NCBI RefSeq assembly: GCF_000340375.1
Contig: NZ_KB446648.1
Location: 381,263-445,262 of the forward strand
DNA: 64,000 bases
Direction: 5' to 3'
From: Eggerthia catenaformis OT 569 = DSM 20559
GTDB taxonomy: Bacteria; Bacillota_I; Bacilli_A; Erysipelotrichales; Coprobacillaceae
This document shows, one piece after another, positions 40,394-43,577 of the stretch. Numbering within the stretch: the stretch's first letter is position 1; each line of letters opens with the position of its first letter. The notes under the pieces are model-generated. The model did no database searches. It saw nothing but the letters and a program-made list of their open reading frames with translations, and was not told the DNA's origin. The translations under genes were made by a program, and so were the position numbers.

Positions 40394-40747
40394 ATGTATT
40401 GTCCGGGATGTGGAAAACAGATTACTGTGAATGATCATTATTGTCCCTATTGCGGCAAACAGTTAAATTCTGATCAGCAGCCTAGCTATACAGTTACTGA
40501 ACCTCAGTATCAGGGACAGTATTCAGCAGGCAATCCTAACTATAATTATCGGCCGGATTATAGCCATGTGAATGGAGATGATGCACCTTCAATAGGATAT
40601 TCAATCATAAGTGTTTTCGTTCCAATAATAGGAATTATACTTTATTTTCTCTTTAAGAGAAACTATCCTAATCGTGCTCAAGCCTGTGGCATAGCTGCGC
40701 TTATTGGCTTTTTGATTAATCTTATTATTGTTTTTAGTGTTAATTAA
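40394..40747 (+). CDS. Zinc-ribbon membrane protein
   Basis: A 117-residue protein with an N-terminal zinc ribbon (CPGC and CPYC at residues 3-6 and 17-20), a Gln/Tyr/Pro-rich low-complexity linker (about 27-60) and two C-terminal membrane helices (about 66-84 and 95-115). Zinc-ribbon membrane proteins of this layout are common in Firmicutes and have no assigned role. It begins 2 bases after nfnB (AGGAGG inside the last nfnB codons) and ends the operon. Confidence 0.78.
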   Translation: MYCPGCGKQITVNDHYCPYCGKQLNSDQQPSYTVTEPQYQGQYSAGNPNYNYRPDYSHVNGDDAPSIGYSIISVFVPIIGIILYFLFKRNYPNRAQACGIAALIGFLINLIIVFSVN

Positions 40748-40775
40748 CCCTTTCTCTATACGAAAGGGCTTTTTG
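40747..40775 (+). terminator. Terminator of the nfn operon
   Basis: CCCTTTC (40749-40755) pairs with GAAAGGG (40763-40769), followed by T's to 40775. Confidence 0.88.
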
Positions 40776-40838
40776 TTAGTTATGGGTAATATAAAGTATG
40801 TATAAGAAGAAATATTCACTCATCTCATGCATATTTAT

Positions 40839-41066
40839 TTAATATCTTAAATGATGAGATAATTCTTTTTTTATTTCTGTATAAAAGTCTTCGCTTTCAA
40901 CTACTTTATCATTACTCACAAGATAAAACATATCTCCATATTTTATCTTGATAGTTTTGAAATAGTATAAGCAATAAAAATACCGATTATTTCTCTTGGT
41001 GAGTTTGTAATAATATCAGTATATTTAGTTTTCCATTGATTATAAACCAAACGATCTTTTAAAAAT
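40839..41066 (-). pseudogene. Decayed coding remnant on the minus strand
   Basis: Two minus-strand frames continue each other. One reads about YTDIITNSPREIIG..IAYTISKLS before TAA. The next, shifted by one base, reads IKIKYGDMFYLVSNDKVVES..ELSHHLRY to a stop at 40839-40841. The composition looks coding, but there is no start and no family that I recognise. It would be read from the minus-strand copy of the symmetrical promoter at 41203-41246. Confidence 0.45.
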
Positions 41067-41202
41067 AATAATACATATTAGATTAGCTAAGTAAAATATC
41101 ATTGATTCTAAAGTCGTTTTTTTTGATTTCGTTTTATATCTTTTTCGAAATTCATTACTGAAAAATATAACTTATATCTTTTTTTAATAAAAGTGAATAA
41201 AA

Positions 41203-41246
41203 CTTGATTAACATAATTTTATCATGATAAAATTATGTTAATCAAG
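41203..41246. promoter_or_regulatory. Perfect 44-bp palindrome carrying a symmetrical promoter
   Basis: Two 22-base arms are exact reverse complements with no spacer, centred at 41224/41225. The arm begins CTTGATTAAC and ends TTTTATCA. On the plus strand TTGATT (41204-41209) and TAAAAT (41228-41233), 18 bases apart, form a promoter; by symmetry the same boxes exist on the minus strand. It ends inside the ribosome site (AAGGAG, 41244-41249) of the regulator gene. An autoregulatory operator is the likely role. Confidence 0.7.
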
Positions 41247-41257
41247 GAGTGGTTATA

Positions 41258-41923
41258 ATGAATAAATTGTTAGAGTCTTATGCAGGCATGATTGATTTTT
41301 TAGGAAAAGCTTTAGGAGAAAATGTAGAAATTGCCTTGCATGATCTAAGCAGCCCGGAGCAGGAGATTGTGGCGATCAGTAATGGGCATATTTCCGGTAG
41401 AAGCATTGGTGCAAAGTTATCTAATTTATCAAGGCATTATTTAGAAAATAAGCAGTATCTTACTCATGATTATGTAGTGAATTATAAAACTACCGGCAAT
41501 GGTGGAAAGCTTTTAAAGTCAGCTACATTATTTATTAAGGAAAATAATAATGAGTATCCTGTTGGAATGCTTTGTGTAAATGTTAATATTTCTGATTATG
41601 ATTATGTAAAGGAAATGATGAAGAGGATATTAGGTATTAAGAAAGAAGGGGATGATGAAGTAGAATTTAATAGAGAAAATCCGATAGAGATATTATCTTC
41701 GCCATTGGATGAGATGGTAGATAAATATGTAAAGGAATGTTTATCAGAAATGGGCATACCGTCTTATGTATTAATTGAAAGATTAAAGGTAAATGAGAAG
41801 ATTAAAGTTGTAAAGTATCTTCAGGATAAGAATACTTTTAAGGTTAAAGGAGCTATTGCCTTAGTGGCTAAGAGACTTGGTGTTTCTGAACCAACTATTT
41901 ATCGTTATTTAAAGAAAATGTAA
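41258..41923 (+). CDS. YheO/DauR-like transcriptional regulator (PAS_6 plus HTH_22)
   Basis: DNA-binding regulator of 221 residues. The N-terminal YheO-type PAS domain (about 5-120) starts with a LGENVEIALHDLSSPEQEIVAI segment and contains GMLCVNVN. The C-terminal HTH (about 170-220) ends GVSEPTIYRYLKKM. Homologues include YheO and the D-arginine regulator DauR, but the ligand is unknown here. ATG 41258 follows AAGGAG by 8 bases. The 44-bp palindrome is its promoter region. The pyrophosphatase gene follows 13 bases after its stop, so the two form an operon. Confidence 0.87.
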   Translation: MNKLLESYAGMIDFLGKALGENVEIALHDLSSPEQEIVAISNGHISGRSIGAKLSNLSRHYLENKQYLTHDYVVNYKTTGNGGKLLKSATLFIKENNNEYPVGMLCVNVNISDYDYVKEMMKRILGIKKEGDDEVEFNRENPIEILSSPLDEMVDKYVKECLSEMGIPSYVLIERLKVNEKIKVVKYLQDKNTFKVKGAIALVAKRLGVSEPTIYRYLKKM

Positions 41924-41936
41924 AGGAGGAAAGTAT

Positions 41937-43577
41937 ATGAATGATATTGTTTATGTAAGCGGGCATAAAAATCCTGATTCAGATTCTGTATGCTCGGCTA
42001 TTGCGTATTCTTATTTATTAAATAAGACAAATAAATATCATGCTGTACCGGTTAGATTAGGTGAGATTAATCGTGAAACAGAGTATATTTTAAAGAGATT
42101 TAATCAGGAGAGTCCGGTTTTATTGAAGACTGTTAAACAGAAAGTAGAAGACCTTGATTATGATAAGGTGACTGTTTTTTCTAAAGAGCTGACTTTAAAG
42201 ACAGCGTGGTCTTTAATGAAACAACAGAATTTAAAATCAGCTCCTATTTTGGATGATCATGGCAAATTGCTGGGGCTTTTATCATCAACAAATATTTTGG
42301 AGGGCTATTTGGATCATTGGGATGCTGATGTTTTAAAGAAAGCTCATACACCTATTGAGAATGTGATTGATACATTACGTGCAAATGTTATTTACTTGGA
42401 TAAGAATCTTCTGACTATTAATGGAACGGTTCATATTATTGCAATGGATAGTGAAGCCAAGGGATATATTAGGAAAGATGACGTTGTTTTGATAGGCAGC
42501 GATCGTCTTGAGATGATTAAGTATCTTGCTGAAATTCAGGCAGGTCTGATTGTCTTGACCGGTATGCATTATCCTTCTGAAGAGATTATAGCATTATGTA
42601 AAGAGAAAGGTGTTTCTCTTATTATTACTCCTTATACCACATTTATGACATCACAGCAGATTGTTCAGTCTATTCCTGTAGAATATGTGATGCAGAAAGG
42701 GAATCTGACCGTCTTTTCGACTGATGATACTGTTGAATATCTCAAAGAAGTAATGAGTCATACAAGATATCGTAGTTATCCGGTAGTTGATTTAAATAAT
42801 AATGTGGTGGGAACAATATCACGTTATCAACTGTTAAATGGAGAGAGAAAGAAGATTATTCAGGTAGATCATAATGAGAGAGGACAAGCGGTAGATGGTA
42901 TTGAGGAAGCGGAAATACTTGAAGTAATAGATCATCATAGAATTGCTGATTTTCAGACAATAGGACCATTGAGCTTTAGAGCTGAACCTTTAGGATGTAC
43001 TTGTACTATTATCAATAAGATTTATGAAGAGCAGGATGTTGAAATACCGCCGGAAATTGCCGGTATTATGTTGGGGGCTATTCTATCTGATTCTTTGATT
43101 TTTAAATCACCTACATGTACAAATGTAGATAAGAAAACAGCGTATAAACTTGCAAAAATAGCTGGTGTTGACCTTGAAGAATTTGGAATGGAAATGTTTA
43201 AGGCCGGAACATCATTATCTGGAAAAACAGTGGAAGAAATCTTTAATCAGGATTATAAGAAGTTTAATATTGGAGATACCAAGATAGGTATTGCTCAGGT
43301 CAATACAATGGATATTGACGGATTTGCTCCTTATAAAAAGGAAATGCTTCAATATATGGATCAGGTTGTTAAAGAGAATCAGTATTCTGTTGCGGTTTTA
43401 TTGCTGACAGATGTTATCAATGCTAATAGTGAAGTCTTTACGGCAGGACCTAGACAAGAATTTGTAGAAGAGGCTTTTCATGTTAAGTTAGATGATTCAC
43501 AGGCAACCTTACCAGGTATTATCTCTAGAAAAAAACAGGTTGTACCGGCTATTACTAATGCAATTAATAATGCTTAG
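41937..43577 (+). CDS. ppaC: Manganese-dependent family II inorganic pyrophosphatase with CBS and DRTGG domains
   Basis: Hydrolyses pyrophosphate to drive biosynthesis. It has 546 residues, the long regulated form. The N-terminal DHH catalytic part has SGHKNPDSDS (about residues 8-17). A regulatory insert (about 65-300) holds two CBS motifs around a DRTGG domain. The catalytic part resumes with EVIDHHRIADF (about 322-332), and the DHHA2 domain is at the C-terminus. In characterised clostridial homologues adenine nucleotides and diadenosine polyphosphates act through the insert. GGAGGAAAG precedes ATG 41937. Co-transcribed with the YheO-like regulator. Confidence 0.93.
   Translation: MNDIVYVSGHKNPDSDSVCSAIAYSYLLNKTNKYHAVPVRLGEINRETEYILKRFNQESPVLLKTVKQKVEDLDYDKVTVFSKELTLKTAWSLMKQQNLKSAPILDDHGKLLGLLSSTNILEGYLDHWDADVLKKAHTPIENVIDTLRANVIYLDKNLLTINGTVHIIAMDSEAKGYIRKDDVVLIGSDRLEMIKYLAEIQAGLIVLTGMHYPSEEIIALCKEKGVSLIITPYTTFMTSQQIVQSIPVEYVMQKGNLTVFSTDDTVEYLKEVMSHTRYRSYPVVDLNNNVVGTISRYQLLNGERKKIIQVDHNERGQAVDGIEEAEILEVIDHHRIADFQTIGPLSFRAEPLGCTCTIINKIYEEQDVEIPPEIAGIMLGAILSDSLIFKSPTCTNVDKKTAYKLAKIAGVDLEEFGMEMFKAGTSLSGKTVEEIFNQDYKKFNIGDTKIGIAQVNTMDIDGFAPYKKEMLQYMDQVVKENQYSVAVLLLTDVINANSEVFTAGPRQEFVEEAFHVKLDDSQATLPGIISRKKQVVPAITNAINNA

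Follow-up and report, generated by a model that had tools for sequence, protein, structure and literature searches.

DauR of Pseudomonas aeruginosa, a YheO-like protein, is reportedly the repressor of dauBAR. In C. jejuni, the PAS6-HTH protein CfiR (Cj1387c) represses its adjacent gene (PMC4519771). CBS-domain family II pyrophosphatases are inhibited by AMP and ADP and activated by ATP and diadenosine polyphosphates (PMC11172384). The literature that we searched held no description of a dedicated, linked PAS_6 regulator and its operator for a pyrophosphatase of this kind. The start sites of typical bidirectional promoters in E. coli lie 18, 10 or 23 bp apart (PMC12825309), and a single template-switching event can give rise to a perfect inverted repeat (PMC8794818; see also PMC7202029).

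The window, which is the whole 64,000-nucleotide stretch of Eggerthia catenaformis DNA analyzed here, contains a 44-bp palindrome at 41203-41246. We consider that this palindrome serves as the operator-promoter of an autoregulated regulator-pyrophosphatase operon with autorepression as the mechanism, a reading of the sequence to which we assign a probability of about 0.72. The two arms (41203-41224 and 41225-41246) are 22 nt each, 100% complementary and free of a spacer, so the perfect palindrome described in the first-pass annotation is real (22/22 complementary), and it lies far beyond chance: about 1e-6 palindromes with 22-bp arms are expected per 1.94-Mb genome at 32% GC, and still only 7e-4 copies at 85% A+T. 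The runner-up among spacer-free perfect palindromes has 14-bp arms in the 344 kb of the E. catenaformis genome that were sampled (the 64-kb window and fourteen 20-kb stretches). Further palindromes of this type in the same genome, with arms of 13-14 bp, were located at L089:5079-5106, L094:10926-10951 and L095:9658-9683. A mobile element or repeat was ruled out given that the genome contains a single copy of the 44-bp palindrome and of the 433 bp adjoining it on the left. A search of viral contigs for the palindrome found none.

The gene to the right of the palindrome (41258-41923, + strand, 221 aa) encodes a YheO-like regulator, a membership indicated by both of its domains, PAS_6 (124.7 bits against a Pfam cut-off of 27) and a C-terminal HTH_22 (68.8 bits against 29.6). 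In its predicted model (mean pLDDT 83.8), the N-terminal part adopts a PAS fold, with Foldseek matches to LOV/PAS proteins, and the C-terminal HTH spans approximately residues 178-219; a search for a solved structure of a sequence relative gave none that was convincing. It is the only PAS_6 protein in the E. catenaformis genome. After a 13-nt gap, the same operon continues with a CBS/DRTGG family II (Mn-dependent) inorganic pyrophosphatase (41937-43577, + strand, 546 aa), for which DHH, DHHA2, CBS and DRTGG all scored above their cut-offs, as did NF011443. These domain matches agree with the earlier proposal of a YheO/DauR-like regulator followed by a CBS pyrophosphatase. The palindrome also ends in the ribosome site as had been noted, with the first three bases of the Shine-Dalgarno sequence AAGGAG (41244-41249, + strand) lying inside it. 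On the left, an intrinsic terminator (40748-40775, + strand) separates the upstream zinc-ribbon gene from the regulator operon, and roughly 430 bp of AT-rich sequence lie between it and the palindrome. No recognizable gene was found in a search of this flank, and no known RNA family matched 40700-41400. Given this terminator and the lack of a recognizable gene or RNA in the DNA that follows it, transcription of the regulator operon most likely starts between the terminator and 41258, and the palindrome would be the natural site for that start.

At the center of the palindrome lies a conserved core, TTATCATGATAA (41219-41230), predicted as the site of the PAS_6/HTH_22 regulator; from its conservation, it is very probably the operator of this adjacent regulator. 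Comparison of the same intergenic region in relatives showed that the core is conserved and the 44-bp arms are not. A match of at least 11/12 to TTATCRTGATAA, the exact palindrome center, was present upstream of the regulator in 33/35 orthologs of the family, covering 17/19 genera, and only 0.7% of dinucleotide shuffles of the same upstream regions reached 11/12. Column information is about 2 bits within the core and falls to background some 3 bp outside it in either direction; what is conserved in this place across the family is a stretch of 12-16 bp at the center, TTATCRTGATAA plus A/T flanks. A dimeric regulator on a symmetric site of this length is the arrangement to be expected. Regulator orthologs occur in nearly all of the genomes of the family that were examined, and the pyrophosphatase is directly downstream in 34/34 of those with downstream sequence (ortholog L084, a fragment, was left out of this count). 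Orthologs with the core have an almost unchanging recognition helix, SEPTIYRYLKK, which is altered in L083, an ortholog without the core; ortholog L082 (genus g3) retains both the helix and the operon and has no recognizable core. Both L082 and L083 are deep-branching, with the operon kept and the core unrecognizable. In genus g12 (L027, L029, L030, L031 and L032), two to three copies or variants of the core are spaced about 29 bp apart, and the mode of regulation may vary there.

The core appears to belong to this operon. The core is missing upstream of PAS_6 homologs in other families of the class, where no pyrophosphatase is linked to the regulator, and this rules out an operator common to all PAS_6 regulators. 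The linkage of regulator and pyrophosphatase seen here is itself limited to one family of Bacilli-class relatives. An exact 14-mer of the extended core occurs once in the E. catenaformis genome and zero to three times in its relatives; 16 of the 23 occurrences fetched from positions away from the operon fell within ORFs, as did most one-mismatch sites in the E. catenaformis genome. We therefore rejected a wider regulon, given that exact sites elsewhere in the family genomes are few and mostly within ORFs. With no other place in these genomes where the core recurs consistently, a local (auto)regulatory operator is the best reading of it, and we infer from its conservation that the 41258-41923 regulator binds DNA and controls the adjacent gene. 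A symmetric motif conserved upstream of a regulator across genera (33/35 orthologs, 17/19 genera) is a mark of such operators, as is overlap with the promoter, which is seen here at the level of sequence only, with the core lying over an extended -10 in the window's clade.

That clade (clade A) comprises six genera, the window's own and five others, with support of 95/92 on the regulator tree. On the + strand of the window, the hexamer TTGATT in the left arm (41204-41209), a -35-like element whose position relative to the core is unlike that in relatives, is followed after 18 nt by TAAAAT (41228-41233), which is preceded by TGA. Promoter-like matches as a whole were not in excess in the 1-kb region (8 found versus 7.4 +/- 2.2 in shuffles). 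The extended -10 (TGA-TAAAAT, 41225-41233, + strand) is also the right half-site of the operator, and throughout clade A it is kept as TGA-TAAAAT or TGA-TAAGAT, always 3 nt from the operator center and in most cases 26-36 nt before the start codon. Because half-site and extended -10 coincide in this clade, a bound regulator would sit on the promoter, a placement that suits repression. In a second layout, found in about 10 genera (e.g., g4, g6, g8 and g18), the -10 is a separate, good one of the TATAAT/TATACT type, about 34-39 nt downstream of the core center, mostly with poor -35 hexamers.

Provided that the core is the regulator's operator, its mode of action is probably repression. We propose that the PAS_6/HTH_22 protein binds as a dimer to the symmetric core, where it would cover the -10 and repress both its own gene and the pyrophosphatase gene, and that a signal at the PAS domain would release this repression. 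The same operator could also serve a regulator that activates its own operon or works in both modes, and the second layout, in which a good -10 with a mostly poor -35 lies downstream of the core in about 10 genera, would accommodate an activator. We regard this alternative as unlikely, however, given that core and -10 overlap in the window's clade and a dimer bound there should obstruct RNA polymerase. Activation fits the second layout only; the single mode that fits both layouts is repression, and the characterized PAS_6-HTH protein Cj1387c is reported as a repressor (PMC4519771).

The first-pass annotation regarded the palindrome as a two-way promoter, and as either under selection or of recent origin. 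Its elements are present, with TTGATT-18-TAAAAT on both strands, the minus-strand copy following by symmetry. Any motif in a perfect palindrome necessarily appears on either strand, and the second copy therefore adds no independent evidence. In the seven other clade genomes, the extended -10 persists on the + strand (TAAAAT or TAAGAT), whereas the counterpart of the mirror-image -10 (TAAAAT, 41216-41221, - strand) reads TAAAAA, TAAGAA or TAATAA, so that a reverse -10 is absent from 7/7 close relatives. The decayed coding remnant said to lie on the left could not be verified: a minus-strand open stretch of 58 codons (40839-41015) in this AT-rich flank may be what is left of a gene, but it has no Pfam match, and a homolog search returned two weak matches in other genomes (E 0.004-0.008) that were not convincing. 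In the minus-strand direction, T-rich DNA (TTTTATTC) comes after the palindrome, and the combination scores like a terminator; it has just 3 G-C pairs, and that strand carries no gene for it to end. The promoter on the minus strand comes with the symmetry as a by-product and has no recognizable gene to drive, and two-way promoter function is unlikely. The proposal that a bound regulator occludes both promoters thus stands in part: a very probable regulator site does overlap the + strand promoter, and the second promoter is unsupported.

Perfect 22-bp arms that far exceed chance could nevertheless mean that the whole symmetry is selected in this lineage, as a tetramer site, a true two-way promoter with a leftward transcript, or both. 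A higher-order oligomer would then throttle the two-way promoter and a leftward regulatory RNA, and a conserved simple operator would have been upgraded to a symmetric switch. We consider this very unlikely. The reverse -10 is missing from all seven clade relatives, the left side offers no recognizable gene and a 58-codon stretch without a family match, and the predicted + and - start sites are 31 bp apart versus 18, 10 or 23 bp in E. coli (PMC12825309). Furthermore, arms longer than 11 bp occur in no other genus; there, perfect arms around the same core reach at most 11 bp, and for this reason neither selection on the 44-bp length nor cruciform sensing is supported. 

In the favored reading, the outer 10-14 bp of each arm are therefore a lineage-specific extension of the operator. 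Growth of the arms from about 8 bp to 22 bp by chance has a calculated probability of about 2e-7 at the local 21% GC. The simplest origin of the arms, we infer, is a fold-back template switch that copied one of them onto the other over the conserved operator, an interpretation drawn from the absence of such arms in other genera; the copied TTGATT would then happen to supply a usable -35 box.

Action at the RNA level is more improbable still. A readthrough transcript could fold a 20-bp hairpin beside the Shine-Dalgarno sequence and limit translation, and a transcript from 41195 does fold at -22.2 kcal/mol (z -6.35), but transcription from upstream is stopped by the terminator at 40748-40775, a transcript from the predicted start within the right arm (about 41240) has no special fold (z +0.93), and the hairpin is not conserved in relatives. 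Cruciform extrusion as a supercoiling sensor, also put forward earlier, is the least credible reading: in its favor are AT-rich flanks and perfect, AT-rich hairpin arms (-16 kcal/mol for the single-stranded DNA), yet relatives with arms of at most 11 bp could hardly extrude and still keep operon and core, and apart from length no sequence feature demands it.

Collectively, the comparative sequence evidence gives good support to a newly predicted operator for an ordinary, known kind of switch, with unusual lineage-specific arms. It provides a concrete operator prediction (TTATCRTGATAA) for a widespread, poorly studied regulator family and ties a regulator, throughout one bacterial family, to a type of pyrophosphatase controlled by adenine nucleotides. 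A further lesson is that behind a striking long palindrome there may be a short conserved operator with nonconserved, lineage-specific arms. Among described systems, DauR reportedly shares the domain type and the role of a local repressor with neighboring metabolic genes; its target genes are different, and the likeness is one of domain type and role. The symmetric -10 elements on both strands recall the bidirectional promoters of E. coli (PMC12825309), but those share or overlap a -10, with starts mostly 10, 18 or 23 bp apart compared to the 31 bp predicted here, and the reverse -10 element of the E. catenaformis palindrome is not conserved. The pyrophosphatase at 41937-43577 has the same DHH, CBS, DRTGG and DHHA2 set as the CBS family II enzymes (e.g., PMC11172384). 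Like the regulator described here, CfiR combines a YheO-like PAS_6 domain with a C-terminal HTH, and it regulates its adjacent gene, reportedly as a repressor (PMC4519771); the CfiR target is an L-PSP endoribonuclease-family gene and the predicted target here a pyrophosphatase gene.
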